Below are positions 18,190 through 63,160 of a stretch of DNA of 64,000 nucleotides, one piece after another (position 1 is the stretch's first letter; every line of letters begins with the position of its first letter). The notes beneath the pieces are model-generated. The model was not told where the DNA came from. It searched no databases and was given only the letters and a program-made list of their open reading frames with translations. Source of the stretch: Alkaliphilus metalliredigens QYMF (GTDB lineage Bacteria; Bacillota; Clostridia; Peptostreptococcales; Natronincolaceae). The translations under genes were made by a program, and so were the position numbers. The stretch is from assembly GCF_000016985.1 (NCBI RefSeq), contig NC_009633.1, positions 3,453,539 to 3,517,538 on the forward strand, given 5' to 3'.

Positions 18190-19647
18190 ATGTATATGAG
18201 TAGTAGTCGATCACGTCAATTCTATTCACATAAATTAGGTGTATTACCCTCTCCAGACACAGAACAGCAGGCACATCATACAGGATATACACCTAAACCT
18301 TGTCCACCTAAACCTTGTCCGCCTTGTCCTCCAGGGCCTCCAGGACCTCCAGGACCTACTGGGCCTCAAGGACCTCAAGGTATCCCTGGTGCAGTTGGAC
18401 CCCAAGGGCCCATTGGACCTATTGGACCTGAAGGACCCCAAGGACCTCAGGGTATCCCTGGTGCTGTCGGACCTCAAGGGCCTATTGGACCTCAAGGACC
18501 GCAAGGTATCCCTGGTGCTACTGGGCCTCAAGGACCTCAAGGTGTTCCTGGACCAATTGGATCTCAGGGACCAATAGGGCCACAAGGACCGATCGGTGCA
18601 CAAGGGCCTATTGGACCTCAAGGACCTCAAGGTGTTCCTGGTGCCACTGGACCTCAAGGACCTGTTGGCGCTACTGGACCTCAAGGACCTCAAGGTGTTC
18701 CTGGTACCACTGGACCACAAGGACCTGCTGGACCGCAAGGACCTCAAGGTGTTCCTGGTACTACTGGACCTCAAGGACCTGTTGGACCTCAAGGTATACC
18801 CGGTGCCACTGGACCCGAAGGACCTACTGGACCTCAAGGGCCTATTGGACCTGTTGGACCTACTGGGGCCACTGGGGCTACTGGACCTATCGGACCTATC
18901 GGACCTATCGGACCTATCGGACCTATCGGACCTGTTGGACCTACTGGACCTATCGGACCTATCGGACCTATTGGACCTACTGGACCTATCGGACCTGTTG
19001 GACCTACTGGACCTATCGGACCTATCGGACCTACTGGACCTATCGGACCTGTTGGACCTACTGGACCTATCGGACCTATCGGACCTATCGGACCTATCGG
19101 ACCTATCGGACCTACTGGGCCTACTGGGCCTATCGGACCTCTTGGACCTATCGGACCTCTTGGACCTACTGGACCTCAAGGGCCTATTGGACCTACTGGA
19201 CCTGTTGGACCTATCGGACCTACTGGACCTCAAGGACTATCTGCATATGCCTATATCTATAATGTAGTCGCTCAAACAGTTCCAGTAGAAGCAGATGTCA
19301 CATTTAGTAATAATGGTGTGGTAAGCGGAAATATTACCCATGTACCAGGAACTGCTGCAATTATTCTTGGTACTGCTGGTGATTATTCAGTATGGTTCTA
19401 TGCTTCAACCTTAGAACCAAGTCAATTTACACTATTCCAAAATGGCCTTCCTGTTCCTGGCGCCACCTATGGTGTTGAAGCTGGCACATCCCCTAACCCG
19501 GGTTGGGTCATCATTAGTGCTTCCGCTGGTGACGTGTTAACAGTTCGAAATCACACCAGTGAAGTCCCTGTTATTTTAGAAACATTTGCAGGGGGCACAC
19601 AGGTCACTACCAATGCATCTATCCTCATTCAAAAGATAGATAGTTAG
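18190..19647 (+). CDS. Collagen-like (BclA-type) spore surface protein
   Basis: The 485-residue protein has three parts. Residues 1-47 are a non-collagenous head rich in Pro and Cys ([14 protein letters not shown]). About 300 residues of Gly-X-Y triplets follow, mainly [12 protein letters not shown] and GPTGPI. A 135-residue C-terminal domain ([20 protein letters not shown]...) resembles the trimerising TNF-like head of BclA exosporium proteins. There is no signal peptide, as expected for proteins assembled on the spore from the mother cell. AAGGAGGT precedes the ATG. A glycosyltransferase gene follows; collagen threonines are known glycosylation sites in BclA. Long open frames antisense to the repeats are composition artefacts. 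Confidence 0.88.
18331..19238 (+). repeat. Gly-X-Y collagen triplet repeat array
   Basis: A 9-base periodicity (GGACCTATC, GGACCTACT, CAAGGACCT and variants) encodes Gly-Pro-Ile, Gly-Pro-Thr and Gly-Pro-Gln triplets. The region 18880-19130 is nearly uniform and prone to copy-number change. Confidence 0.95.
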
Positions 19648-35177: not shown

Positions 35178-36707
35178 CTATAATAACATATAATACAGAC
35201 TTTCCGTTGGATACTCAGCATCAGCGGTGATATCGATCCCAAGCTTTCTAAAAATCTGTTCATCATTCAAACTTAAAATCGTTGTTGAGTGAGCTTGGCA
35301 TCCCTTTAGCATGGCTAATTTTTCCATGGCCACCTGAGCTGTGGGGTTTGTAGCAGCACAGATGCTTAATGCGATCAATACTTCTTCACAGTTCAAGGCT
35401 GTATTTATATTTCCCAATGTCTTTGATTTTAGACTTCTAATAGGTTCTAATATTACCGGTGAAATCAAATGAATTTCATCGGATATATTGGCAAAATACT
35501 TCACGGCATTTAATATGAGAGCCGCCCCAGCATTCATCTCATCGGAGCCTTTCCCAGTTAATATAGTTCCATCATGAAACTCAATTGCCATAGCAGGATA
35601 GATTTCGCTTTTATTGGCGTCACCATTATTATTGGACTCTTCTTTTAATCTAGAGGAACGCTCTCTTGCAGGAATCACAACACTTCTGTCTTCTTCCTTT
35701 AACTTGATCTCCTCCATAATCAGTTTGGAACTATCAAATGTTTCCTTGTCTTCATGGCCTTTTTTATACTCACAGCCTACTTTGAAGTATCGTCTGATGA
35801 TCTCCTGCTTAGATGCTTCCTTGATTACCTCATCGTCAATAATTCCAAATCCCACTCGATTGACTCCCATGTCTGTAGGGGATTGGTAGACTGATTCGTC
35901 TCCTGTGATCTTTTCAATAATCCGCCTCAGTACTGGGAATGTCTCGATATCCCGGTTGTAATTGACTGCAATCTTGCCATAGGCCTCTGCATGGAATGAA
36001 TCAATTAAATTGACATCCTTCAGGTCCACTGTTGCAGCTTCATAGGCGATGTTTAGGGGGTGCTTTAATGGCACATTCCATACGGGGAATGTTTCGAACT
36101 TTGAATAACCAGCAGCTTTTCCTCGTTTATGCTCATGATAAAGCTGACTCAGACAGGTGGCTAGCTTTCCACTTCCTGGTCCCGGTGCAGTGACAACAAC
36201 AATAGGCTTTGTGGTTTCAATATAAGGGTTTTTACCATATCCCTCGTCACTCACAATGGTATCCACATCTGTCGGGTATCCCTTTGTTTTGCTGTGGGTA
36301 TACACCTTGATTCCTCTTCGTTGAAGCTTATTAATAAAAACAGTTGTTGCAGGTTGTCCATCAAATCTTGTGATGACGACACTGTTGACATCAAGCTCAT
36401 ATGCTCTCAGGTCATCAATCAGTCTCAGGGTCTCCATATCATAGGTAATCCCAAAGTCGCCTCTCATTTTGTTTCTTTCGATATCTCCTGCATAGACACA
36501 AATGACCACTTCAACTTTTTCCTTTAGCTTATGCAGTAGCTCAATTTTTGCATTTTCATTGAATCCTGGTAACACTCTCTTGGCATGAAGGTCACATAAT
36601 AATTTCCCGCCAAATTCTAGATAGAGCTTGTCATAATAATTTACCCGTTCTAGAATATACTTCGATTGCTCTTCTAAATATTTTTCATGATCAAATCCGA
36701 TTTTCAT
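35178..36707 (-). CDS. UPF0371 / DUF1846 family protein
   Basis: This 509-residue protein belongs to a conserved family of unknown function. Recognisable segments are [20 protein letters not shown] at the start, [51 protein letters not shown] (a P-loop-like turn near residue 175) and [17 protein letters not shown]. Length is normal for the family. It is a single-gene unit with terminators on both sides. The glycine-rich GPGSGK suggests nucleotide binding, which is not established. Confidence 0.88.
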
Positions 36708-38288: not shown

Positions 38289-39497
38289 TTACATGACATT
38301 TGTCATGCACACATTTAAACATTCCTCCTTTTCTAGTATCTCTTCTTTTGAGGACCCGAATATGACACCAGAAACATAACAAGCTGTATCAGGATTAGAG
38401 TTGGATAAAGGATTATTGAACGCTAGAGGTATAAAGTTTAATTCTTCTACAGCCTGCTGGCAAACAGCAAAAAAATCATCCCATTTTAAATGTGAATCCC
38501 AGTTCTGGAATAATAAAATCGAAGCATTATAAGCGCTAAAAATACTTTCCTTTAAAAGTAGTGGGGCTGTAGATCCATTTAAACGAAAGTTAAGATCAAT
38601 AACAAATTGACGATTATCATTAGAAATAACAATATCAAACCCACCTATCCCGATAAATCCCAGAGAGCAAGCGTATTCCATAATAGCAAGACCTACTTTC
38701 ATCAATTTTTCAGGTGGTTCGTGATCTCTTTCAAACCAATTACCTATATAAATACCGTCGGCCGTAGCTATTTGCTCAGATGTACCAAGATAGATGATGT
38801 CTCCCTTTATTGTTTTTGCGAACTGAATATTATAACTTTGTTCTATTTCAATATACTCCTCTACCACTACTGTACTACAAGTATTGAAGTAATTGTATGC
38901 ATAAGAAACATCCTTTTTACTTTTACAGATGACAACATCGTATCCTCCACCATTTGGCTCATCAGATGCAACTTTGATTACTACAGGCAATTTTTTAAGT
39001 TGATCGACTGTCTTACTTATCTCATTAGGGTGTATTACCACTCTCCTAGGAGTATGTCCTATAGGCACCAATTTTTCTAAATTGGCTTTGTTATTTAAGA
39101 ATCCGATAAGCTGTGGATCGATCCAGTATCCGCCTCGATTAATCTCAGAGCTGGGGTGAGGATGATTCACTACCATTTGCTTTTTTTGACCGTTAAATAA
39201 ATCTAGGGTATCTTGATAACTCCTCTCTGAATGGTATATGTGTCGAAAAGGTGCGACCTCAAGATTTACTCTCTTTAGCAAAGATATTATTTCTTGGGAA
39301 ACAACAGAGTCACTACAAATTACAGGCATATCACCAGCTACGGTAAGTGGTGCCCCCGTGAGGAAATCTAGTTTTTCTCTGTTTTTAGGCAACCATCCAT
39401 AATTTGAAAAAGAAGCCCTAGGATTTAATATAAGATCCTTACCAAAAATATCAGATAGTGAAACAATAGGTAGTAAAACAGTATTATATGGATTCAT
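38289..39497 (-). CDS. ATP-grasp ligase-like protein
   Basis: This 402-residue protein has an ATP-grasp fold. The lysine-bearing strand is PVVIKVASDEPNGGGYDVV (about residues 175-193), the adenine-contact segment VVVEEYIEIEQS, and the metal-binding end GFDIVISNDNRQFVIDLNFRLNGS with acidic residues and Asn. The first 140 residues resemble the pre-ATP domain of carboxylate-amine ligases. It is not of the YheC/YheD type and looks closer to amino-acid or peptide ligases. The ATG at 39497 follows AAAGGGG; an upstream extension overlaps the divergent promoter. The product is unknown; the neighbours suggest spore-related peptide bond formation. Confidence 0.72.
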   Translation of the reverse strand: MNPYNTVLLPIVSLSDIFGKDLILNPRASFSNYGWLPKNREKLDFLTGAPLTVAGDMPVICSDSVVSQEIISLLKRVNLEVAPFRHIYHSERSYQDTLDLFNGQKKQMVVNHPHPSSEINRGGYWIDPQLIGFLNNKANLEKLVPIGHTPRRVVIHPNEISKTVDQLKKLPVVIKVASDEPNGGGYDVVICKSKKDVSYAYNYFNTCSTVVVEEYIEIEQSYNIQFAKTIKGDIIYLGTSEQIATADGIYIGNWFERDHEPPEKLMKVGLAIMEYACSLGFIGIGGFDIVISNDNRQFVIDLNFRLNGSTAPLLLKESIFSAYNASILLFQNWDSHLKWDDFFAVCQQAVEELNFIPLAFNNPLSNSNPDTACYVSGVIFGSSKEEILEKEECLNVCMTNVM

Positions 39498-39539
39498 AAG
39501 GTATCCCCTTTCATGTAAGTCTTTCTTCAATAGTAGTGT

Positions 39540-39572
39540 ATTCACACCTATGAAAAAAGGTTGCATAGAATA
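39540..39572. promoter_or_regulatory. Divergent SigK-like promoters
   Basis: Plus strand: AC (39546-39547, in CACC), 16 bases, then CATAGAATA (39564-39572), an exact match to mACm-N16-CATAnnnTA, 32 bases before the YheC/D start. Minus strand: ACC, 17 bases and AATACACTA face the ATP-grasp gene; this second one is weaker. Confidence 0.5.
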
Positions 39573-39603
39573 TATAAAAAAGAAAACTTTAGGAGTGAAC
39601 AAG

Positions 39604-40932
39604 ATGAAAATTTTATGGGTAAATTCACTAGCACAAAATCAAATAGCATTAAATTTATCCCTCTATAAGAAATTACATCAGCCTAATAGTATGAATGTCC
39701 ATTTTGGAATGTTCAAAACAAAAGTAAATACTGTCATCCATGATGATCTTTTAGAAGGAACCATAGGTCTACCAATAAATTTGGGAGATAAATATACAAT
39801 TCCTACAAACATCCCCTATGAAATTTATTATAAAGGGGGAGACATTCATATTGGACCTGTTATCGGTCATATTGTTACTAAGTATTTTGAGAACTTAAAC
39901 GATAAAACTTTATCATCTTATTTATCTAGATTGACAGAGTACCAATCAATAAAAGGCTTAGTTTTTATTTGTACTAAAGATTCTATCTATCCAGACCAAA
40001 ATTTAATAAAGGGTTATTACTACAATCCTGAAGGGAGAAAAACAGGCAGTACTTGGCAGTTGGGTGAATTCCCACTTCCAAATGCCATCATTAATCGCTC
40101 ATTTATCAGCCAGAAAAAAATCAAAATATTACAAGAAAAAATCGGCGACAGGATTTTTAATACCTATTGGCAAAATTTGAATAAATGGAATATCTGGAAA
40201 AGGCTATCTAAGGACAAAAAACTCATCAAACATTTACCTTATACAGAGAAATATGTGGACATTAAACAGCTTAAAATGTTTTTAAAGAAATATAACGGTG
40301 CCTATTTCAAACCATTTTCCAAATGCAGAGGAAGAGGCATTCTGAATGTATCTAAGATAGCAAATGAGAAAAAAATCTTAGTAATTGATGAAAGAAAAAA
40401 CAGATATTACTTTGAAGATTATAAAAACTTAGATGATTTTCTAAATACGAAGTTATCAAAACCATCAATTATACAACAAGCAGTACCATTTCGTGTAGAA
40501 AAAAAGATGGTTGATTTTAGGGTTATTCTACAAAGAGATAAGGATAAAGAATGGTCCTTCAAAGGCTCATTTGCTAAGATTTCTCAGCCAGGTAGTGTGA
40601 TCACAAACCGTCGAAGTAGAGAAAAACTGATAGATGGAAGAGAGGCACTCATTTCTATTTATAATATGAGTGAAGAACAAGCAGTTAAAGTAGAAAAAAA
40701 AATGATTATTTTAACAATAAGAGCTATTGATATTTATGAAAAAAAAGGAATGCATATTGGAGATGTGGCAGCAGATATTATTTTAGACTCTAGTCTACAT
40801 TTATGGTTATTAGAGCTCCAATTAAATCATGGAATATCTAAAAACCTTCCACCTGAAGTCTATACAGAGATCAAAGTCACGCCACTTAGATACGCTAAAG
40901 CCTTATCGGGCTTTATTCAATTGTCACGATGA
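39604..40932 (+). CDS. YheC/YheD-family ATP-grasp protein, subtype A
   Basis: This 442-residue protein is one of five related proteins in the window. The N-terminal half carries a beta-rich domain (NVHFGMFKTKV...EGTIGLPINLGDKYTIP). The C-terminal half is an ATP-grasp domain with YFKPFSKCRGRGILNV, IIQQAVPFRVEKKMVDFRV and HIGDVAADIILDSSLHLWLLELQLN. Bacillus YheC and YheD are endospore coat-associated. The start at 39604 (MKILWVNS) follows AGGAG by eight bases and lies after a SigK-like promoter. The metal-binding end reads LELQLNHG, not the usual E-x-N, so catalysis may be altered. The next gene follows after 59 bases. Confidence 0.85.
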   Translation: MKILWVNSLAQNQIALNLSLYKKLHQPNSMNVHFGMFKTKVNTVIHDDLLEGTIGLPINLGDKYTIPTNIPYEIYYKGGDIHIGPVIGHIVTKYFENLNDKTLSSYLSRLTEYQSIKGLVFICTKDSIYPDQNLIKGYYYNPEGRKTGSTWQLGEFPLPNAIINRSFISQKKIKILQEKIGDRIFNTYWQNLNKWNIWKRLSKDKKLIKHLPYTEKYVDIKQLKMFLKKYNGAYFKPFSKCRGRGILNVSKIANEKKILVIDERKNRYYFEDYKNLDDFLNTKLSKPSIIQQAVPFRVEKKMVDFRVILQRDKDKEWSFKGSFAKISQPGSVITNRRSREKLIDGREALISIYNMSEEQAVKVEKKMIILTIRAIDIYEKKGMHIGDVAADIILDSSLHLWLLELQLNHGISKNLPPEVYTEIKVTPLRYAKALSGFIQLSR

Positions 40933-40991
40933 CTTAATCATGAAGTCTTGAGAAATGGTAAACTAGAGTCCAAAATAAAGGAGTGTATAGA

Positions 40992-42392
40992 ATGGAAGTA
41001 TCGTGGTTGAATTCACTAGAATCAAATAATATAGCTATTAATAGTAATTTATATGAAGAATTATTGCAACCTCAAAAGATTGTCGTTCATTATGGGATGC
41101 TAGAAGTTAGTTTAGCTGTTCTGATCAATAATGAGCTCTCAGAAGGAACAATAGGTTTACCAATGAACTTTACAGATCAATATACCATTCCGAAAGATAT
41201 ACCCTATGAAACCTACTTCAAAGAGGGTGCACTTTATATTGGCCCTATAATTCTTCATGTATCATTGGGCTCTAAGCAATTTAAAAGAAAATCTTACGCT
41301 TTTAACTTGCCTATGTTTTTAGACTATGCATCTATCAAAGGATTAATTGTTACCTGTACTGAAAAGTCTATAGATGTAGACTCTGGTATAGTTGAAGGTT
41401 ACTATTTAGATCCAAAGGCTAAGAATCTTAAAAATGCATGGAAATATGGCAAATTTCCACTTCCAAATGCGATATTTAATCATTCATTTATGTCTCAAAA
41501 GAAAGTTACTGCTATACAAAATAAAATAGGAAATAGAATTTTTAATACTTATTTACTAAATCTTGATAAATGGAATACATGGAAATTCTTATCCCAAAAT
41601 GATATGTTAAAAAAATATATACCCTATACCGAAAAATATACTAGCACAAAACAACTGAAATCTCTTCTTAATAGATATGGCTCTCTTTACCTCAAACCTT
41701 GTAACGATGGTGGCGGTATGGGGATCATGAAGCTGGATAAAACAAAGACTGGTATCACTTTGATTGATAATAACCGTAAAAAACATTCCTTTAGCAATTA
41801 TCAAGAGTTGTCTCAATTTTTAAAAACTAGAATCGCTTCTATAGCTCAACAATCAGCCCATTTTAAGACAAATAGTCCTCTCTTGTCTCAATTTTTGGGA
41901 AATAAATTAACAACATCTTATATTGTTCAACAATCAGTTCATTTCAAAAAAAATGATCATCATGTGGATTTCAGATTGGTTTTGCAAAAAAATAGTAATT
42001 TGGAATGGCATTTCACAGGTTTAGTTGCACGAATTGCTCATAAGGGAAGTATTATTACGAATAAACGTGGTAGACAAAAGATGATTTCTGGAAGAACAGC
42101 ATTAACATCTATTTATGGCGTTAGTGAAGAAAGAACTCAAAAGATTGAAACAGAAATGACTAATGTCGTTATTAAAACAGTTGAAATGTATGAAAAACTT
42201 GGCTACCATTTAGGAGATGTGGTTGCAGACATAGCCTTAGATTCAAATTTTAATATTTGGCTATTAGAATTGCAATTATATTATAGTATCAATGGATGGC
42301 GTACAAAAGGATTACGTAATTTCTTTGTAAATGTTGCAACAACACCATTTAAATATGCTAAAGCATTAGCTGGGTTTATTGAAAGTCAATGA
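40992..42392 (+). CDS. YheC/YheD-family ATP-grasp protein, subtype A, with internal duplication
   Basis: This 466-residue paralogue of the preceding gene has the same plan: N-terminal domain (VVHYGMLEVSLAVLI, EGTIGLPMNFTDQYTIP), then ATP-grasp elements YLKPCNDGGGMGIMKLD, VDFRLVLQKN and HLGDVVADIALDSNFNIWLLELQL. It is longer because about 25 residues are repeated: LSQFL...QQSAHFKTN is followed at once by LSQFL...QQSVHFKKN. The ATG at 40992 follows AAAGGAG by eight bases; an upstream in-frame GTG is inside that site. It is probably cotranscribed with the gene before it and ends at a compound terminator. Confidence 0.85.
   Translation: MEVSWLNSLESNNIAINSNLYEELLQPQKIVVHYGMLEVSLAVLINNELSEGTIGLPMNFTDQYTIPKDIPYETYFKEGALYIGPIILHVSLGSKQFKRKSYAFNLPMFLDYASIKGLIVTCTEKSIDVDSGIVEGYYLDPKAKNLKNAWKYGKFPLPNAIFNHSFMSQKKVTAIQNKIGNRIFNTYLLNLDKWNTWKFLSQNDMLKKYIPYTEKYTSTKQLKSLLNRYGSLYLKPCNDGGGMGIMKLDKTKTGITLIDNNRKKHSFSNYQELSQFLKTRIASIAQQSAHFKTNSPLLSQFLGNKLTTSYIVQQSVHFKKNDHHVDFRLVLQKNSNLEWHFTGLVARIAHKGSIITNKRGRQKMISGRTALTSIYGVSEERTQKIETEMTNVVIKTVEMYEKLGYHLGDVVADIALDSNFNIWLLELQLYYSINGWRTKGLRNFFVNVATTPFKYAKALAGFIESQ
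41808..41963 (+). repeat. In-frame tandem duplication inside the ATP-grasp gene
   Basis: TTGTCTCAATTTTT occurs at 41808 and again at 41883, and TCAACAATCAG at 41846 and 41927. The shift between copies is 75 then 81 bases, so the copies have diverged by a 6-base indel and kept the frame. The paralogues have one copy. Confidence 0.85.
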
Positions 42393-42507
42393 GATGACGG
42401 TACCTCATTTTATAGACGTGGTTATTAATCACAAATAGTCCAAATGAAAATATGCTTGATTATTAGCTAAAGCAGTAATAGCGGATGTTCTTGTAATTAT
42501 CAAGGCA

Positions 42508-42552
42508 AACCCCTCTTTTAGTTAATCTCACCCAGATTGCTTTGGAGGGGTT
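42508..42552. terminator. Bidirectional compound terminator
   Basis: AACCCCTC (42508-42515) pairs with GAGGGGTT (42545-42552); a smaller hairpin, AATCT-CACCC-AGATT, sits in the loop. It separates the convergent YheC/YheD-type genes. No coding frame is supported in 42393-42603. Confidence 0.6.
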
Positions 42553-42603
42553 GTTCATTTCCCCTTTCTTTTTATCGTCTCAATGCCCCTATATAACTTA
42601 TTC

Positions 42604-43926
42604 TTACTTCTCAAATCCTGCTAATGCCTTAGCATATTTGAAGGGAACAGATATCACTTTTTCAAAAAAATCACGTAAACCTTCAATGGTTCTTGCATTT
42701 ACTCCGTAATTCAATTGCAGTTCTAGCAACCAGACCTTAAGGTTGGAATCTACAGCTATATCTGCCGCCACATCCCCGAGATGATACCCTTTCCTTTCGT
42801 ACATTTTAACTGTCTCTATAACAACTTGAGTCATATCCACTTCAATTTTTTTTGCCCTTTCCTCACTCACTTTAAAAATACTTGTTAATGCTTTTCTTCC
42901 AAGAATAGATTTTTCTCTTCCTTTTTTATTTGTAATGATACTTCCTTCCTGGGCGATTCTTGCTATTAAGCCAGTGAGAGACCACTCTTTTTTGCTATTT
43001 TTTTGTAAAATTAATCTAAAATCTACATGACGATCATTTTTTTTGAAATAAACTGCTTGCTGAATAATGTAGGGTATGGCCAACTTATTATTCAAGAATA
43101 AAGCAAGACTCTGATTATCATTAAAATAGTATTTTTTCTTTTTATAATCAACCAAAGATATTCCTGTGTTATCTTTATCCAATTTCATAAGACCTATCCC
43201 CCGTGCTCTTTTCGCTGGTTTAAGATAAATAGAACTGTATTTTTCTAGTAAATAATTCAATTGCTTAAACCCTAAAAATTTCTCCGTGTATGGTAAATGA
43301 TCTTTTAACATTGGATTATTAGATAAAAACTCCCAGGTTTCCCACTTATCAAGATTTAACCAATAGGAATTAAAAACTTTGTCCCCCATTTTCTTACGCA
43401 AAGCAGAAATTTTTTCTTGACTCATTAAAGAATGGTTCAATATAGCATTTGGAAGTGGAAATTCTCCATATTTCCATTCAAGTTCCGAATCGGTAGCCCT
43501 TGGATCAAAGTAGTATCCTTTTATCATACCTGAGTCCACATCAATAGAGCCTTTTGTGCAAATAATAATCAATCCTTTGATAGAATTATAGTCTAAAAAG
43601 GAGGGTAAACTTCTAATGTATTTTTGTTTTTTCAACTGTTTGAAGCCCCCCCTTGAAACAAATGCGATCACGGGGCCAAGATAAATCTCTCCAGCTTTAC
43701 AATAAACATCATAAGGAATATTTGTAGGAATTGTATACTTATTAGAAAAATTCTTTGGCAAACCGATTGTATCATCAGATAGGTTATTTTTGATGATAAC
43801 TTTGAATTTCATTATCAACATACCAAAGTGTAGGATAATTATCTTGGGTTGTTTTAACTTTTTAAATAAACTTATATTTAATGCCATTTCATTTGGTTTT
43901 AGTGATTTTAGCCAAAGAAGTTTCAT
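42604..43926 (-). CDS. YheC/YheD-family ATP-grasp protein, subtype A
   Basis: This 440-residue third member of subtype A has N-terminal IILHFGMLIMKFKVII and DTIGLPKNFSNKYTIP, then ATP-grasp segments YLKPAKRARGIGLMKLD, VDFRLILQKNSKKEW and HLGDVAADIAVDSNLKVWLLELQLN. It is most like the gene at 39604: the 45 bases before both start codons are nearly identical, including the promoter and ribosome site. The ATG at 43926 follows AGGAGTGAACAAA. It diverges from the MurF-like gene. Confidence 0.85.
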   Translation of the reverse strand: MKLLWLKSLKPNEMALNISLFKKLKQPKIIILHFGMLIMKFKVIIKNNLSDDTIGLPKNFSNKYTIPTNIPYDVYCKAGEIYLGPVIAFVSRGGFKQLKKQKYIRSLPSFLDYNSIKGLIIICTKGSIDVDSGMIKGYYFDPRATDSELEWKYGEFPLPNAILNHSLMSQEKISALRKKMGDKVFNSYWLNLDKWETWEFLSNNPMLKDHLPYTEKFLGFKQLNYLLEKYSSIYLKPAKRARGIGLMKLDKDNTGISLVDYKKKKYYFNDNQSLALFLNNKLAIPYIIQQAVYFKKNDRHVDFRLILQKNSKKEWSLTGLIARIAQEGSIITNKKGREKSILGRKALTSIFKVSEERAKKIEVDMTQVVIETVKMYERKGYHLGDVAADIAVDSNLKVWLLELQLNYGVNARTIEGLRDFFEKVISVPFKYAKALAGFEK

Positions 43927-43957
43927 TTTGTTCACTCCTAAAGTTTTTTTATTTATA

Positions 43958-43984
43958 CATTCTATGCAGTCCTTTTCAAATGTT
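43958..43984 (-). promoter_or_regulatory. SigK-like promoter of the YheC/YheD gene at 42604
   Basis: On the minus strand CATAGAATG (43958-43966) follows AC by 15 bases (in AACA). The -10 to start region copies that of the gene at 39604 almost base for base. Confidence 0.45.
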
Positions 43985-44063
43985 TCCATAGGTTCCTATT
44001 GGTAGGGATCAGATGACATTATGAAAATAAAACAATAAACTTGTTTATTTTAAAAAAAGTTTC

Positions 44064-44090
44064 ACATCATTGCTCATTTCTCATAAATTA
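44064..44090 (+). promoter_or_regulatory. SigK-like promoter of the MurF-like gene
   Basis: AC (44064-44065, in CACA), 16 bases, then CATAAATTA (44082-44090) match mACm-N16-CATAnnnTA exactly. The expected transcript start near 44097 rules out translation from in-frame codons further upstream and supports the ATG at 44146. Confidence 0.55.
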
Positions 44091-44145
44091 TACTGACTAC
44101 GTATCCTCATTTAATAAAGAGCAAAATCAAAGGGGGTTAATTTAC

Positions 44146-45252
44146 ATGAGCCAAGTCATACCTACAGTTCCCACTATTGCAATTACAGGTAGCGCTGGTA
44201 AAACCACTACTAAAGAGATGCTTGCCTCAATATTACAAACGAAGTGGAAGATCTTTAAATCAAAAGAAAATAAAAATTTTCAGAAAAACACTCAAAAGCA
44301 TGCTCGTATGATCAAGCCATGGCATCAAGGAGTCGTCTTAGAGTTTGGAATGGGCGAAGCAAATACAGGTAAAATGCATTGCAGCCATATCCAACCCAAT
44401 ATTGCTGTGATTACAAATGTAGGCTCTGCTCATTACGGTGTATTTGGAAACAGTATCAAACTAACTGCTAAAGCAAAGTCAGAGCTTATCAAGTATATGA
44501 AGCCCGAGGGAATTTTATATATTAATAACGATGATAATAATTCAAAACTATTACAGATAAAAGGTTTTAAAGGTGAGATCTTTACAGTTAGCATTAAAAA
44601 TAAATCAGACTATCAAGCTGTTAATATAAAATATGTAGACCAAGGCATGACATTTCAGGTTAAATTAGATGATCAGCTGGAGGATTTCTTTATTCCTACT
44701 TTTGGCTACCATAATGTAATTAATGCATTATTTGCTATCGGCGTTTCTCATCATCAAAAATTTTCCCCTTCAGAGATAAAGGTAGGTTTAAAGAATTACG
44801 AGGTACCAGTCCGTAGATTAAACCATTACGAGCTTCCTAATGGGTTAGTTATCCTTGATGATAGTTATAGTGCTAATCCAGAAGCAACTAAAGCTGCTAT
44901 AGATGTACTGGTTGAGTTAGGGAAAATCAAAAAAAAGTTAGTTATATTAGGGAGCATGTTGGAGTTAGGAGAATATTCAATTGAGGGTCATAAAGAAGTT
45001 GGCAAATACCTAGCTCAGAACAAGGTAGATAAAATAGTGATCATTGGCAAAGAAGCCCGATGGATTGGAAAAGGTGCAGTCGAAGCTGGATACCCCCCTT
45101 CCAGAATTTTACTATTTACTAAAAGTCGCAATAAAATGCATTTATATCTGCAAAAGCTGATTAAACCGAATATGGCTATTCTTGTTAAAGGATCTAAGCT
45201 TATGCAAATGAATAAAACACTGAATTATTTATTAAAAAATTTCTCAAAGTAG
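44146..45252 (+). CDS. MurF-like Mur ligase lacking the N-terminal substrate domain
   Basis: This 368-residue protein holds the central ATPase and C-terminal domains of Mur ligases. The P-loop GSAGKTTTKEML begins at residue 15. NVGSAHYGVFGN and DDSYSANPEATKAAID (about 238-253) are closest to MurF, which adds D-Ala-D-Ala to UDP-MurNAc-tripeptide. The first domain of MurF, which binds the UDP part of the substrate, is missing because the P-loop is almost at the N-terminus. So the acceptor is probably not a UDP-linked muropeptide. AAAGGGGG stands nine bases before the ATG. The ligase is followed after 47 bases by a D,D-carboxypeptidase-like gene, both behind a SigK-like promoter. Confidence 0.82.
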   Translation: MSQVIPTVPTIAITGSAGKTTTKEMLASILQTKWKIFKSKENKNFQKNTQKHARMIKPWHQGVVLEFGMGEANTGKMHCSHIQPNIAVITNVGSAHYGVFGNSIKLTAKAKSELIKYMKPEGILYINNDDNNSKLLQIKGFKGEIFTVSIKNKSDYQAVNIKYVDQGMTFQVKLDDQLEDFFIPTFGYHNVINALFAIGVSHHQKFSPSEIKVGLKNYEVPVRRLNHYELPNGLVILDDSYSANPEATKAAIDVLVELGKIKKKLVILGSMLELGEYSIEGHKEVGKYLAQNKVDKIVIIGKEARWIGKGAVEAGYPPSRILLFTKSRNKMHLYLQKLIKPNMAILVKGSKLMQMNKTLNYLLKNFSK

Positions 45253-45299
45253 TCGTTATGTATATATATCATTTTAAAAAGATATTGAGGAGGGATTCA

Positions 45300-46073
45300 A
45301 TGGGAAAGACTATCCTTGCACAGAATGCAAGGGCTGCCATTTTATTTAAAGCTAGCCCTAATAATAAGGTGTTGTTTCAAAAGCATGCTACTAAAAGACT
45401 CCCTATAGCCAGTATCACAAAATTAATGACGATGCTGGTCCTATTAGATGGTATCGATGCGGGGAAAATAAAATGGACCGATAAGGTGGAAATGAGTCCT
45501 GCTGCAGCTTCACTATATGGCTCTAAAATTCATTTAAAGCCTGGGGAGAAATTACCTGTAGGAGATATGTTTAAGTCGATGATTATTGCCTCAGCAAATG
45601 ATGCCGCTATTGCTTTAGCAGAGCATCTTTCTGGAACCATGGATAATTTTATAGATAAAATGAATCAAAAAGCGAAGACCTTAGGTCTTAAAAATTCACA
45701 TTTTGTAAATTCTCATGGTTTGTTTGAAGATAACCACTATTCTTCAGCTATTGATATCGTTAAAATGGTAAGTATGGCATTAAGAAGAGAAGAGATATTA
45801 AAATACTCAAGATTAAAATATGATTACATTAGAAAAGAAGACAACCAGTTGCAAAAGCTAGTAAATACCAATAAATTAATTGGAACCATACCTGAAGTAG
45901 ATGGTTTGAAAACTGGGTATACTCCTTTAGCTGGTTGTTGCTTGGCTGCAACTGCTCTCAAAGACAATGTTAGATTAATAGCAGTTGTTTTAGGAGAACC
46001 TAGAAAAGCTGTCAGAGATAAAGAAGTTATAGAAATGCTTAATTATGGGTTCAAAGCCTCTCTCTTAACATAA
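45300..46073 (+). CDS. D-alanyl-D-alanine carboxypeptidase-fold protein without signal peptide
   Basis: This 257-residue serine peptidase of the S11 (DacA/DacF) type has all three active-site motifs: S38-x-x-K41 in ASITKLM, S98-A-N100 in IIASANDAAIA, and K204-T-G in DGLKTGYTPLAG. Characterised relatives are secreted and anchored at the membrane. This one starts directly with the catalytic domain (MGKTILAQNARAAILFK), has no hydrophobic leader and no C-terminal membrane helix. GAGGAGG lies six bases before the ATG; upstream residues would not form a leader either. It should stay in the cytoplasm, plausibly in the mother cell, together with the MurF-like ligase. Confidence 0.85.
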   Translation: MGKTILAQNARAAILFKASPNNKVLFQKHATKRLPIASITKLMTMLVLLDGIDAGKIKWTDKVEMSPAAASLYGSKIHLKPGEKLPVGDMFKSMIIASANDAAIALAEHLSGTMDNFIDKMNQKAKTLGLKNSHFVNSHGLFEDNHYSSAIDIVKMVSMALRREEILKYSRLKYDYIRKEDNQLQKLVNTNKLIGTIPEVDGLKTGYTPLAGCCLAATALKDNVRLIAVVLGEPRKAVRDKEVIEMLNYGFKASLLT

Positions 46074-46144
46074 ATTACGGGAAAATTGAAAAAGTAAAGA
46101 GTGGTATTTCCTAGTGAAAGGGAAATAGCTCCGACTCCTATTGC

Positions 46145-46190
46145 GCTCCTCCCTGGTAAACATTGTGATAAATTACCAGGGAGGAGCTTT
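46145..46190. terminator. Bidirectional terminator
   Basis: GCTCCTCCCTGGTAA (46145-46159) pairs perfectly with TTACCAGGGAGGAGC (46173-46187), followed by TTTATG. It separates the convergent peptidase and YheC/YheD-type genes. Confidence 0.8.
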
Positions 46191-46240
46191 ATGATTAGTA
46201 TAGTTTCTTTAAAATGGGACTGATTTCAATTTTAAAGCTG

Positions 46241-47344
46241 TTACACGTTTCTTTTAATTCTATACTTTCCATATTCCAATAAATTTAAGGATGATTCATT
46301 GATTGTCTTCTTATCATAGGCTTTGAAAAAAGATACTTTTCTAGACTGCGAGTTACACTCTATAAACCACAGATGACCTTTTTTGTCTAAACCAATATCT
46401 ATCCCGATTTCTCCAATGGGTCCATAATCTTTTTCTATAGATTGATAGGTAATATTTAAAAATTGATTTAATTTATTTTTTAATTCTTTAACTTCAATAT
46501 CTGAATAGTTCATAATATGTTTGAAAAAATAATCAAAGCTATAACTCTGGGCATGTGTTGTTATTGGTGCATTATTTTGACTCATTCGGACTGGAATCCC
46601 TGCTACTGTTATTTGTCCCTTACCATTTTTCTGTACTTCTGCCCTTAGGTCTACAATTTTTTTATCTATTGTGATTAGATCAATCGCTTGTTGAATCAGA
46701 AACTTTTTTTCACCAAAGAAGCTCTGAATTTTATTGACTACATCATTGTCGTTATCTATCTTATGGACATATAATCTATCTTTTAGATAACTAAGTTCGT
46801 ATCCTCCTTCAGGCAATTTAATGACACGAATCACTTGCTTGCCTTGACGGCCTACACAAGCTTTTAAATATACTGTATCAGTTGTTTTCAACATTTCAAA
46901 TAAGTCATTTGGACTGTTATACATAATTGTTAATGGTAAATACTGTTTACATCTTTCATCTCTTGATAAATTATTATAAACCTCCCATTTATTAAATCCA
47001 TTTAGATAGTTTAACGGTTTAACTTTTTTTTTCAGTAAGTGCACTCTTAATTTATCAGTTAAAACACTGGTTTTATATATGAGATTCGGATAAGGAAACT
47101 GTGCTTTTTCCCAAAGGGATTTTTTTTCATTATAATAAACACCTCTAATCCTTCTTCTTTTAGTATCAACGTCCTTAGCTGAAAAAAAATACAGGCTTAT
47201 ATTTGCATACTTATTTGCTTCTTTAATGGATGTGATTTTTTCTGTTTCTTTTTGCTTCAAAAGTCGCTTTATTGTACGCTCCGCAGCACACACCCCTAAA
47301 ATAGGTTGTTTTGAGTTTAAATTTGTTTTATATCTACTCAACAC
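46241..47344 (-). CDS. YheC/YheD-family ATP-grasp protein, subtype B
   Basis: This 367-residue protein belongs to a second, shorter subtype. The N-terminal part (PILGVCAAERTIKRLLKQ, RGVYYNEKKSLWEKAQFPYPNLIY) resembles Bacillus YheC/YheD. The ATP-grasp part shows VYLKACVGRQGKQVIRV, FLIQQAIDLITIDKKIVDLRAEVQKN and the metal-binding GEIGIDIGLDKKGHLWFIECNSQ with the classical E-x-N. It starts with GTG (or the TTG just after), behind AGGAGG, nine bases after the related gene upstream. The two form one transcription unit. Confidence 0.85.
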   Translation of the reverse strand: MLSRYKTNLNSKQPILGVCAAERTIKRLLKQKETEKITSIKEANKYANISLYFFSAKDVDTKRRRIRGVYYNEKKSLWEKAQFPYPNLIYKTSVLTDKLRVHLLKKKVKPLNYLNGFNKWEVYNNLSRDERCKQYLPLTIMYNSPNDLFEMLKTTDTVYLKACVGRQGKQVIRVIKLPEGGYELSYLKDRLYVHKIDNDNDVVNKIQSFFGEKKFLIQQAIDLITIDKKIVDLRAEVQKNGKGQITVAGIPVRMSQNNAPITTHAQSYSFDYFFKHIMNYSDIEVKELKNKLNQFLNITYQSIEKDYGPIGEIGIDIGLDKKGHLWFIECNSQSRKVSFFKAYDKKTINESSLNLLEYGKYRIKRNV

Positions 47345-47352
47345 TTCTCCTC

Positions 47353-48513
47353 CTAACTATCTTCACTATATAAAAAAATGGCGTATTCCAATAAATTCAA
47401 ATATGATTGTTGAATTTCTCTTTCATCATAAGCATGATGGAAAGATGCTTTGCTAGAATACGCATTACTTTCAATGAACCATAGGTGATCATTGCTATCC
47501 AAACCAATATCCATAGAAAGCTCTCCACTTTGTCCATAGGATGCTTCGATGGCATGATATATCATTTTTAGAAATTTTATTATTCTACTTTCTAACTTTG
47601 CAATTTCCACTTCCGAATAATCCATGAAATGTTTAAAAAAATACTGAAAAGTATAGCTCTCTCCATGGGTTGTGATTGGAGAATTATGATTACTAACCCG
47701 AACAGCAATGGCTGTTATCACAATCTTTCCGTTGTCTTTTCTTTGTAATTCTGCTCTCATGTCAATGATTTTACCTTCTACTTTTATTAAATCGATGGCT
47801 TGCTGTACTATAAATTTCCTGTTTTTATAAAATAATAATATTTCATGTATCAGACTGTCGAAGCCCTTCGCTTCATTCTCATATAATCCATCGATAAAGT
47901 AACGATAGGTGTATCTACCTTCTGGTAACTGCTCTACGCATACGACGCCTCTTCCTTTCCCGCTCTGACACGCCTTTAAGTACACCTTATGACTAATCGC
48001 TAACATTTTTTTTAAAGAATCAGGACTATCATACAATACAGATAATGGTAAATGAGGTGAAATATTTTGATAGTCCGATAAATGCTCATAGATCTCCCAC
48101 TTATTAAAACAATATAGATAATTGATTAATTTAATATCGAATTCTTTTATACGGTTTATAAATTTAAGACTTAAGTCTTTCTTGTTTTTTGATCCATAGG
48201 CCTTATAAATGATGTCTGGATAAGGCAATTTTTTCTTTTCCCATTTGTCGGTTTCTTGGTTATAATGAACACCTCTTACAATTGGTTTATTGATATGGAA
48301 ATCATCAATGGAAAAGAAATAAAGCAACATCTGTATTTGTTCATTTGCTTCTATAAACTTTGCATGTTTTGAAAGTGGCTGCTGTTTAGAGAGCATTCTC
48401 TTAATATGATTAGCTTTAATTAGAATCCCCATTATGGGTTTAGCCAGTTCCTTTTCTGAGCTTAGCTGATTAATCTGATTTAAGTTGTCATCCTTTTTAT
48501 CACTATCACCCAT
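47353..48513 (-). CDS. YheC/YheD-family ATP-grasp protein, subtype B
   Basis: This 386-residue partner of the gene at 46241 has a 30-residue hydrophilic N-terminal extension (MGDSDKKDDNLNQINQLSSE). After it come PIMGILIKANHIKRMLSKQ, RGVHYNQETDKWEKKKLPYPDIIY, then ATP-grasp motifs VYLKACQSGKGRGVVCV, VQQAIDLIKVEGKIIDMRAELQ and GELSMDIGLDSNDHLWFIESN. The classical E-x-N is present. The ATG at 48513 follows GGAGG by eight bases; the ATG at 48528 includes that site and is rejected. Members are known from spore coats; the ligation substrate is unknown. Confidence 0.85.
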   Translation of the reverse strand: MGDSDKKDDNLNQINQLSSEKELAKPIMGILIKANHIKRMLSKQQPLSKHAKFIEANEQIQMLLYFFSIDDFHINKPIVRGVHYNQETDKWEKKKLPYPDIIYKAYGSKNKKDLSLKFINRIKEFDIKLINYLYCFNKWEIYEHLSDYQNISPHLPLSVLYDSPDSLKKMLAISHKVYLKACQSGKGRGVVCVEQLPEGRYTYRYFIDGLYENEAKGFDSLIHEILLFYKNRKFIVQQAIDLIKVEGKIIDMRAELQRKDNGKIVITAIAVRVSNHNSPITTHGESYTFQYFFKHFMDYSEVEIAKLESRIIKFLKMIYHAIEASYGQSGELSMDIGLDSNDHLWFIESNAYSSKASFHHAYDEREIQQSYLNLLEYAIFLYSEDS

Positions 48514-48673
48514 TGAACAAACCTCCATAATAAATTAAATACATACACATCGGTGTTTTGTATACACAAAATACATTTAACCCCTTGGGGTCTTCTCGCT
48601 CTCATTGGAATTACACTATATATTATGCTGATGAGATAAAACAGTGTACAATATGGAAATATTTAATACCAGC

Positions 48674-53994: not shown

Positions 53995-56589
<2,595 letters not shown>

Positions 56590-56921: not shown

Positions 56922-57134
56922 AGCGTCTCCGACGCTTTCGCTGGATGAAACAACTAAGCGATCAACACAATTTAGAAAACTAAATTGGTTGCCTGCTTAT
57001 AGGGGACCCTAGGTCCCCTTCGACGACTGTTTCCACAGTCTGAGCACCCTCCTGAATGAGGAAGGGGAATGTTTCCCCTTTCAACCCCTGTTTTTTATAT
57101 AATAGGAAAGCACAACTTTCCTATTATATAAAAA
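56922..57134 (+). other. Cluster of six hairpins upstream of the aminotransferase gene
   Basis: Six perfect inverted repeats follow each other: AGCGTC/GACGCT (56922-56936), CAATTTAG/CTAAATTG (56968-56987), AGGGGACC/GGTCCCCT (57001-57019), GACTGT/ACAGTC (57025-57040), AAGGGGAA/TTCCCCTT (57061-57079) and a 20-bp stem at 57090-57134. The last ends 26 bases before the start codon. No known riboswitch is recognised. The rest of 56640-56920 shows nothing. Confidence 0.6.
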
Positions 57135-62158: not shown

Positions 62159-63160
62159 TTACATATTTCCTAGCTTTTGTTCTATTATCCGCTCTAATTT
62201 TGGCCAAATTTTATTGATATGCTGTTCATAAGTGTATTGCTCCATTACTTTCCGCCGAGCATTGGCCCCTATTTCATGCCTTAATTCTGGTCGATTGAGA
62301 TAGTATCGAACCAAATCAATGGTTTCTTCTGGGGAACTGGTCAGGAGAACCTCTTTTTTATCTTTAAAAAGTGCTGTCATTGCTTGGGTTCGACTGGCAA
62401 TCATAAAAGCACCGGAACCTAGTATCTCAAATGTACGCTGTGTCACCTGATCCATGGCATTCTGTACACCTAAAACAATCTTTGATGAGCGATAAATAGA
62501 GCCAGACTTCCCATACAAAAGATGTCCTTGAAGCCAATCCCGGGGGATCTTTTTTCCAAACTCCTTTGCTATCAATGCTTCATCCTTTCGCCAACCTGTG
62601 CCCCAAATATGTGCCTTTTCCCCTATTTGAACTAGAGGAAATAATAAGTGTCGAAGGCTTTCAAAACGGTAGGTTTTTTTAAAAAGATGTGTGGCACCAA
62701 CAAAAGAAATATCGTATATCTCTTTTTCATTTTTTTTCTTTTCAGGAAACATACGGGGGTTAAATGCAAAATTTAAATAACTAGAAGGAATACCTAGTTT
62801 CTCATATTTTTTAATACAATCTGGATGAATGGTCCACACAAAATCAGGTCTAGTCCGTTTTACATATGGAAGTGACCAGCTTGTGTGATTAATAAGATCT
62901 TCTGTGGCCCAATACAGGTGAAACAAACAGTACTTTTTACATAATCCAGATATTTTATCTGCAAAAGGGGAAAAAAGCCTACGATTATAGCCTACGGTAA
63001 TGAGGATATCTGGCTTGAAATATGAAATCCCCGCTTCTATCTCTTCAGGTACCCATGAGGACTGATACATTATTTCATGGCCCATTTGGGCTAATGAATC
63101 ACCTAGTGTGTTTATACAATATGTCCGGTGATCCAGAAAAAAAATTTTATAAGTCTTCAT
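62159..63160 (-). CDS. CgeB-like spore glycosyltransferase
   Basis: This 333-residue protein fits the CgeB family: IFFLDHRTYCINTLGDSLAQMGHE, then ISFVGATHLFKKTYRFESL and, in the C-terminal half, VTQRTFEILGSGAFMIASRTQAMTALF with PEETIDLVRYYLNRPELR. In Bacillus, CgeB adds sugars to the spore crust. The gene heads a tight minus-strand set with the epimerase and GT4-like genes, 85 bases after the oxidoreductase gene. Confidence 0.85.
   Translation of the reverse strand: MKTYKIFFLDHRTYCINTLGDSLAQMGHEIMYQSSWVPEEIEAGISYFKPDILITVGYNRRLFSPFADKISGLCKKYCLFHLYWATEDLINHTSWSLPYVKRTRPDFVWTIHPDCIKKYEKLGIPSSYLNFAFNPRMFPEKKKNEKEIYDISFVGATHLFKKTYRFESLRHLLFPLVQIGEKAHIWGTGWRKDEALIAKEFGKKIPRDWLQGHLLYGKSGSIYRSSKIVLGVQNAMDQVTQRTFEILGSGAFMIASRTQAMTALFKDKKEVLLTSSPEETIDLVRYYLNRPELRHEIGANARRKVMEQYTYEQHINKIWPKLERIIEQKLGNM

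Follow-up and report, generated by a model that had tools for sequence, protein, structure and literature searches.

We analysed a 64,000-nucleotide stretch (the window) of the single-contig, 4.93 Mb genome of Alkaliphilus metalliredigens QYMF, in which positions 38289-48513 hold six ATP-grasp genes, five of the YheC/YheD (YheCD) type and one LdmS-like, together with a Mur-type ligase and an S11 peptidase. An earlier interpretation made from the DNA letters alone (the sequence-only reading) had described six ATP-grasp proteins, a Mur ligase without its UDP-substrate domain and a signal-less protein of D,D-carboxypeptidase fold, and had proposed that they form one peptide-ligation island of the mother cell. 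All eight genes were confirmed in place. Domains were called with the curated profile cut-offs of Pfam and NCBIfam, and partner genes were assigned with hidden Markov models of our own, each made from between one and eight sequences, with Pfam applied to a subset of the partner proteins. The likely start positions given here are our choice, in the case of the Mur gene by comparison.

The LdmS-like gene, a homologue of ATP-grasp dipeptide ligases, lies on the minus strand at 38289..39497 (likely start 39497; the open reading frame (ORF) extends to 39602). It is followed on the plus strand by two YheCD genes, Y1 (39604..40932) and Y2 (40983..42392). A third, Y3 (42604..43926, minus strand), is divergent from the Mur gene (44146..45252, plus strand; ORF 44041-45252), downstream of which is the S11 gene (45300..46073, plus strand; ORF 45258-46073). 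The last two YheCD genes, Y4 (46241..47344) and Y5 (47353..48513), are on the minus strand. All five YheCD proteins match PF14398 far above its cut-off of 26.8 bits (168.8, 187.2, 208.2, 246.8 and 244.3 bits for Y1 to Y5).

The Mur protein is a trimmed relative of MurF. Its ORF matches Mur_ligase_M (PF08245) at 121 bits and Mur_ligase_C (PF02875) at 64 bits, and the Pfam scan found these two domains only, with no N-terminal domain for binding the uridine diphosphate-N-acetylmuramic acid (UDP-MurNAc) peptide. The protein has ~368 amino acids (aa), compared with ~455-510 aa for full-length relatives, and keeps the P-loop and a DDSxxANP-type region. MurF is its nearest solved structure (198 bits; MurC 66). 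It scored 252.1 bits against the murF model TIGR01143 (cut-off 288.6), 56.5 bits against the cyanophycin synthetase model TIGR02068 (cut-off 850) and 21.1 bits against the PgsB model (cut-off 222.7). Three of the fusion proteins described below also stayed under the first two cut-offs (254.8-269.6 and 50.7-65.1 bits, respectively). Membership of the window protein in MurF, CphA and PgsB was thus rejected at the curated cut-offs. Because full-length MurF-type genes exist elsewhere in the genome, the trimmed Mur is an addition and not the house-keeping enzyme.

The YheCD proteins have the fold of ATP-dependent ligases. A structure model of Y3 (mean predicted local distance difference test score (pLDDT) 87.3) has an ATP-grasp fold, and the best fold matches of YheCD are D-alanine-D-alanine ligases, with LysX, glutathione synthetase and tubulin-tyrosine ligase close behind. 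Lys236, Asp389 and Glu402 (K236, D389 and E402), which we take to be ATP- and metal-binding residues, are invariant across nine YheCD sequences. A comparison of Y4 with PDB sequences gave no match. The whole genome contains eight PF14398 matches, seven of them within ~28 kb at this locus, including two just beyond the window end. Among 41 relatives, own genome included, 13 have YheCD, and Bacillus subtilis, used as a control, matches the profile as well. In one relative (G015; L234:3912-6656), a 914 aa frame carries two tandem YheCD domains (two PF14398 matches).

The two remaining genes encode a putative dipeptide ligase and a peptidase. The ORF at 38289-39602 passes the cut-off for ATP-grasp_3 (PF02655, 25.7 bits vs 23.2) and scores 263 bits against the LdmS model NF047900, below its cut-off of 475. 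We therefore rejected its membership in LdmS (L-aspartate--L-methionine ligase) and call it a homologue. The S11 protein matches PF00768 at 230 bits and contains the SxxK, SxN and KTG motifs as SITK at residue 38, SAN at 98 and KTG at 204. Its domain begins ~8 residues from the likely start, which leaves no room for a signal peptide. N-terminal hydropathy was 0.58 for this protein, 0.44-0.99 for six other S11 proteins that partner a trimmed Mur and 2.5 for a distant S11 of the exported type, a rough measure, since 5 of 33 NlpC/P60 proteins likewise score no higher than 0.99. The S11 domain starts at residue 1-18 in the six Mur partners and at residue 39 in the exported-type protein. By hydropathy and domain start, the S11 partner appears unexported in 7 of 7 cases (the window and six loci), which belong to two separate Mur clades. 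The natural reading of these sequence features is that the S11 partner would act in the cytosol on the product of the ligases. At five loci (L178, L180, L182, L183 and L184), an S11 gene (253-263 aa, no signal-like N-terminus) directly follows a trimmed Mur of a branch other than the window's.

Taken alone, these affinities could describe an additional enzyme set that makes peptidoglycan precursors for the spore cortex, with the trimmed Mur acting as MurF, YheCD as D-alanine-D-alanine ligase and S11 as carboxypeptidase. Each assignment has its basis: MurF is the closest solved structure to the Mur protein, D-alanine-D-alanine ligases lead the fold ranking of YheCD, and S11 is a family of D,D-peptidases. 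We nevertheless regard a cortex set as distinctly unlikely. The window Mur lacks the UDP-MurNAc domain, as do its relatives judging by their length, and the genome has full-length MurF-type genes elsewhere. An S11 protein that seems unexported in every case should not reach the cortex, and ligases of other specificities follow closely in the YheCD fold ranking.

Comparison with other genomes indicated that the Mur and YheCD genes belong together. In Alkaliphilus serpentinus (locus L039), the LdmS-like gene, a YheCD gene, a divergent Mur gene and an S11 gene are found at 61, 60, 66 and 65% identity to the window genes. The YheCD gene there, beside Mur, is the only YheCD match in that draft genome; it is 60% identical to Y3, which has the same gene layout, and 44% and 50% identical to Y1 and Y2, which by these identities look like local duplicates. 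Elsewhere the two ligases are a single chain. In Natronincola peptidivorans and Caldalkalibacillus mannanilyticus, one protein contains the Mur middle domain, the Mur C-terminal domain and YheCD in that order, and genome G1506 holds a further Mur-YheCD fusion. The order is reversed, YheCD and then Mur, in Lysinibacillus parviboronicapiens, where the fusion is the sole YheCD match in the genome. In genome G1320, a YheCD gene heads a same-strand series that continues with two trimmed Mur genes and then an ATP-grasp of the L-amino-acid-ligase type. Genome G009, from the family of the window organism, has a full-length MurF-like gene that shares 4 bp with one of the YheCD genes forming a run there.

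A tree of 84 Mur sequences (65 of 75 loci were used and 63 gave a Mur row, to which the window, ten tandem MurF-like and nine full-length MurF sequences were added) gathered the 63 trimmed rows into a single group (98/96); full-length MurF, the longer Bacilli proteins L215 and L216 and the tandem MurF-like genes fell outside it. The five Mur-YheCD rows (100/95) share a ten-row group (100/99) with the window and A. serpentinus, and a separate group (100/97) is made up of eleven YheCD-Mur rows. Because the domain orders are opposite and the tree groups separate, at least two fusion events must have occurred. The best match of a model of the Caldalkalibacillus fusion was MurF (TM-score 0.58-0.67, ~31% identity), with CphA1 first appearing at rank 34; at a predicted TM-score of 0.55, domain placement in the fusion model is uncertain.

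The locus set behind these and later counts comprised 75 rows for 74 distinct loci (L042 and L117 are the same place), 20 of them from one family. YheCD lay within 1.5 kb, fusions included, in 29 of the 72 trimmed-Mur loci taken for this count (L042 and two loci whose Mur frame the ORF caller had lost, L179 and L198, were left aside) and in 1 of 56 control loci with full-length MurF, an unmatched control from the window's class in which at least one gene was counted twice (L022 and L070), most trimmed-Mur loci being from other taxa. The single positive control (L028) is the G009 locus with overlapping genes. No CapA-like or S11 gene was found within 1.5 kb of the 56 full-length MurF hits. Chance adjacency of Mur and YheCD was rejected on account of the fusions and the 1/56 control. 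Coupling of the two ligases is well supported by the genomic comparisons. The pairing that the sequence-only reading had noticed is real and is conserved well beyond the window genome, down to repeated fusion.

We also considered whether YheCD might be mainly a structural coat protein, with Mur and S11 merely adjacent by chance. A study of Bacillus subtilis describes YheD as forming a shell round the forespore and interacting with itself, with its function unknown (PMC7911427), as expected of a structural component. Both-order fusions, conserved adjacency and the three invariant ATP-grasp residues all argue in the other direction, and we consider a purely structural role highly improbable.

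The module is smaller than the island first proposed. Y4 is 56% identical to L230_07 and 51% to L231_12, and Y5 is 52% identical to L230_08 and 42% to L231_12, proteins of the relatives G017 and G007, respectively. The Y4-Y5 locus is matched in G017 together with YkwD and four small downstream genes, and in G007 with three of them, where the stretch that was read ends. No Mur gene was present within the stretches read at these two loci. A single unit spanning all of 38289-48513 was therefore rejected, and the Mur module was drawn as 38289-46073. On these sequence relationships, Y4-Y5 (46241-48513) is a separate, older spore unit outside the core.

Within the window's order, the module was found in 3 of 297 genomes, namely those of the window organism, A. 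serpentinus and Natronincola; a fourth listed genome (G034) has a full-length protein. The search at phylum level gave 6 of 299 genomes, counting the window's own; in one of the six (G1366) the frame has 475 aa. In 391 genomes of the window's class searched at E 1e-70, a draw without G006 and G012, the only frames beyond the window's own gene were full-length (457-507 aa), and a single-sequence scan of genome contigs for relatives found none. The co-conservation on which the sequence-only reading depends is seen as a four-gene set in A. serpentinus and as fusions elsewhere, and is rare in the window's order. In the Lysinibacillus family, a trimmed Mur was detected at E values up to 1e-85 in 80 of 250 genomes, each time within a frame of 707-820 aa. 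Twenty of these loci were read, and every one was fused, 19 as YheCD-Mur and 1 as Mur-YheCD. The 19 YheCD-Mur loci also contain a pair of MurF-like genes and an NlpC/P60 gene, along with one or two ATP-grasps of the L-amino-acid-ligase type. The Mur-YheCD locus (L123) is without those neighbours and has an Asp/Glu racemase close by. Racemases of this kind lie near Mur-YheCD fusions in four genomes (L041, L123, L167 and L195), which hints at D-aspartate or D-glutamate as a substrate. Across Bacilli, 57 of 398 genomes matched at 1e-100; 13 of the 57 frames exceed 700 aa, and the matches include two longer proteins that do not belong to the trimmed group.

Taking all 74 distinct trimmed-Mur loci together, 25 are fused to YheCD and 14 have YheCD within 4 kb (10 of these are also fused); the other neighbours within 4 kb are CapA-like genes (28 loci), NlpC/P60 (13), S11 (6) and Asp/Glu racemase (4). 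L179 and L198, with their lost Mur frames, were treated here as loci lacking Mur. All 28 CapA-like cases are among the 51 fetched Bacilli loci, and no CapA-like gene was found within 4 kb of the YheCD-linked loci counted. Three CapA-like proteins were tested and matched PF09587 at 230-252 bits. The trimmed Mur family therefore looks like a general ligase outside wall synthesis, of which YheCD is a partner in two branches. Among the Bacilli loci L170-L213 are trimmed Mur ligases paired with CapA-like (PF09587) proteins, often with NlpC/P60 in addition, and a rough measure showed no strong hydrophobic segment at the N-terminus of 22 of 29 CapA-like proteins. These CapA-like loci look like a separate poly-amino-acid system. 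A canonical poly-gamma-glutamate capsule was rejected as a candidate, as CapC, one of the partners in that system, was found in 0 of 7 module genomes.

These neighbours could instead mean that the trimmed Mur makes a storage or surface polymer resembling poly-gamma-glutamate or cyanophycin, with YheCD as a priming or side-chain ligase. The frequency of CapA-like and NlpC/P60 genes would fit such a product, as would the racemases near the four Mur-YheCD fusions. In addition, cyanophycin synthetase shares the two-ligase logic (PMC9262961). The PgsB and cyanophycin synthetase scores fall far short of their cut-offs, CapC is missing from the seven module genomes, and the YheCD-linked loci counted are free of CapA-like neighbours. 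Overall, we consider a polymer of this kind unlikely.

A role of the module in spores is likely, and several associations point to it. SpoIVA was present in 80 of 80 Lysinibacillus-family genomes with a fusion-length frame and in 106 of 170 others (Fisher 3e-13 with kinship ignored), calls that include a few weak hits and genomes that include close relatives, so that the counts are non-independent. Upstream of the fusion, and in the same orientation, 18 of the 19 YheCD-Mur loci have a member of one small gene family, at a distance of no more than 229 bp in 17 cases. Compared with Pfam, 5 of these 18 proteins exceed the cut-off of 24 bits for CotZ (at 30-49 bits), 11 match only CotZ and do so below the cut-off (16-22 bits), and 2 match nothing. 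CgeB-type glycosyltransferases stand beside the trimmed Mur in L189, L211, L214 and L226, with Pfam (PF12996 and PF13524) applied to L214 alone.

Promoter-like sites gave a mixed picture. The exact SigK-like pattern AC-N16-CATANNNTA occurs five times in the window, and three of the five matches lie within 150 bp upstream of the chosen starts of Y1 (39546..39572, plus strand), Mur (44064..44090, plus strand) and Y5, ahead of the Y5-Y4 pair (48619..48645, minus strand). The Poisson probability of three sites in five 150-bp upstream stretches is 4e-7, for stretches and starts that we chose. The 21 kb of L039 from A. serpentinus contain a single such site, which lies 57 bp ahead of the YheCD gene. 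A looser SigK pattern was seen upstream of 3 of the 18 CotZ-like genes and 49 of 233 controls; only the motif CATANNNTA by itself, a pattern chosen post hoc, stood upstream of 13 of the 18, compared with 27 of 112 controls. The statement that several of the genes sit behind SigK-like promoters thus survives for the sites before Y1, Mur and Y5, without window-wide enrichment and with two of the sites dependent on the chosen starts.

Several observations weigh against the spore role and against the module as a spore-specific unit. In the Lysinibacillus family, 106 SpoIVA-positive genomes are without the module, and in the window's order just 3 of 297 genomes have it, the window's own among them, so that sporulation can do without it. 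For most of the upstream genes, the CotZ assignment is weak. Five SigK-like matches in the window compare with 2.26 expected, and 8 of 100 shuffles reach five, so the pattern is not enriched. The Y1 site is upstream only if Y1 starts at 39604 and the Mur site only if Mur starts at 44146, both later starts of our choosing; with the longest ORFs, only the Y5 site remains upstream. The fusion genes of L040, L041 and L042 have no exact site upstream, and a stricter SigK pattern was found upstream of 0 of 18 CotZ-like genes, compared with 14 of 233 controls. Finally, YheCD was fused or within 1.5 kb in just 6 of 49 trimmed-Mur loci of the Bacilli draw (the two lost Mur frames lowering the 51), and 28 of 51 had a CapA-like neighbour. 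The mother-cell spore pathway of the sequence-only reading keeps the SpoIVA co-occurrence, the CotZ-like neighbour and some SigK-like sites in its favour, and the trimmed Mur family as a whole is not spore-specific.

Having weighed these points, we consider it fairly probable that 38289-46073 encodes a peptide-making module for spore formation, with its two ligases split over separate genes. This favoured reading is based on co-conservation, fusion in both orders, retained motifs and the company of spore genes; peptide synthesis, the composition and acceptor of the product, the order of steps and mother-cell expression are what we infer. Y3, with its paralogues Y1 and Y2, and the trimmed MurF-like ligase would work on one substrate, much as the ATP-grasp and Mur domains of cyanophycin synthetase do. 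Given that the UDP-MurNAc-binding domain is missing, the Mur acceptor is probably not a peptidoglycan precursor; it may instead be a free peptide, a poly-amino acid or a spore-coat protein. A dipeptide would probably be supplied by the LdmS-like ATP-grasp (or by an enzyme of the L-amino-acid-ligase type). The cytosolic S11 protein would probably trim or transfer a D-amino-acid end of the product, with NlpC/P60 as the trimming enzyme elsewhere. Given the resemblance to Ddl, MurF and a D,D-carboxypeptidase, D-amino acids may form the end of the product. The module would likely act in the mother cell, with the coat or crust as its likely target. That ATP-grasp and Mur ligases act together in peptide making, as the sequence-only reading had suggested, gains strong support for the coupling itself from the both-order fusions, the kept adjacency and the four-gene set in a second Alkaliphilus, and a peptide product would follow by inference. 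A spore peptide pathway is our best reading, as yet undemonstrated. We put forward more tentatively, as possible and no stronger than that, that YheCD and the trimmed MurF core together constitute a class of spore peptide synthetase not described before, making a non-ribosomal, D-amino-acid-containing (iso)peptide or polymer that is attached to CotY/CotZ-type crust or coat proteins, with the cytosolic D,D-peptidase cross-linking or trimming it.

The proposed module has partial counterparts in known systems. Like it, cyanophycin synthetase (CphA1) joins ATP-grasp and Mur-ligase parts for a non-ribosomal peptide polymer (PMC9262961), and the Lysinibacillus fusion has the domain order of CphA1, ATP-grasp first (PMC11915815). 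Here, in contrast, the Mur part is MurF-like, the ATP-grasp is YheCD, and the setting is one of spore genes; the two ligases are separate genes in the window and one chain, in either order, in relatives. The window Mur shares with MurF the middle and C-terminal domains and the two motifs, but is without the N-terminal UDP-substrate domain, scores below the murF cut-off and falls in a separate clade. All five island YheCD proteins resemble YheC/YheD spore-coat proteins in having PF14398, and differ where they are partnered or fused with a Mur ligase. Poly-gamma-glutamate synthesis (PgsB/CapB, CapC, CapA) also uses a small Mur-type ligase, and CapA-like and NlpC/P60 neighbours occur with other trimmed-Mur members; unlike that system, the window Mur is not PgsB by score, CapC was not found in the module genomes and CapA-like genes do not accompany the YheCD-linked loci. 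Archaeal pseudomurein peptide ligases are likewise Mur ligases encoded with an ATP-grasp protein (PMC11915815), but theirs is a cell-wall peptide, a carbamoyl-phosphate-synthetase-like ATP-grasp and a different lineage.

The more tentative reading, if correct, would give YheC/YheD proteins their first biochemical role. For YheD, which is associated with the coat and has the fold of an enzyme, no reaction is known, and a partner fused in both orders provides a concrete, testable class of reaction. Should the proposal hold, some spores would contain a dedicated peptide of non-ribosomal origin, made by cell-wall enzymes in a new combination; analyses of protein and sugar would overlook this chemical layer of the coat or crust. 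The module would also add another lineage to the peptide synthetases that combine ATP-grasp and Mur ligases, alongside cyanophycin synthetase and the ligases of wall peptides. We found no description of a YheCD-Mur partnership or fusion in the accessible text of the open-licence literature, and an earlier mention elsewhere is possible.

Spore surface genes surround the module in the window, in agreement with the sequence-only reading. A protein at 18190-19647 combines collagen repeats (153 bits) with a sub-threshold BclA_C match, and a CAP/YkwD-type protein scores 138 bits against TIGR02909, below the cut-off of 171. The domain scan also identified a DUF7852 protein and, at 62159-63160, a protein with DUF3880 and Glyco_trans_1_2, of the CgeB type. 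By eye, 53995-56586 encodes an 863 aa collagen-like protein of G-P-T repeats; the opposite strand has long open frames.

Some further features of the window were noted. Near the Mur module, a DUF1846 gene occupies 35178-36707, and a relative with 83% identity lies near the run of YheCD and MurF-like genes in G009 (L223). A TnpB-like and TnpA-like pair at 676-2279 is presumably of the IS200/IS605 type by its appearance. A Clostridiales-2 small RNA (Rfam RF02937) at 57013-57096 on the minus strand overlaps the start of the ORF at 57056, and elsewhere in the window there are three T-box leaders and one glycine riboswitch.

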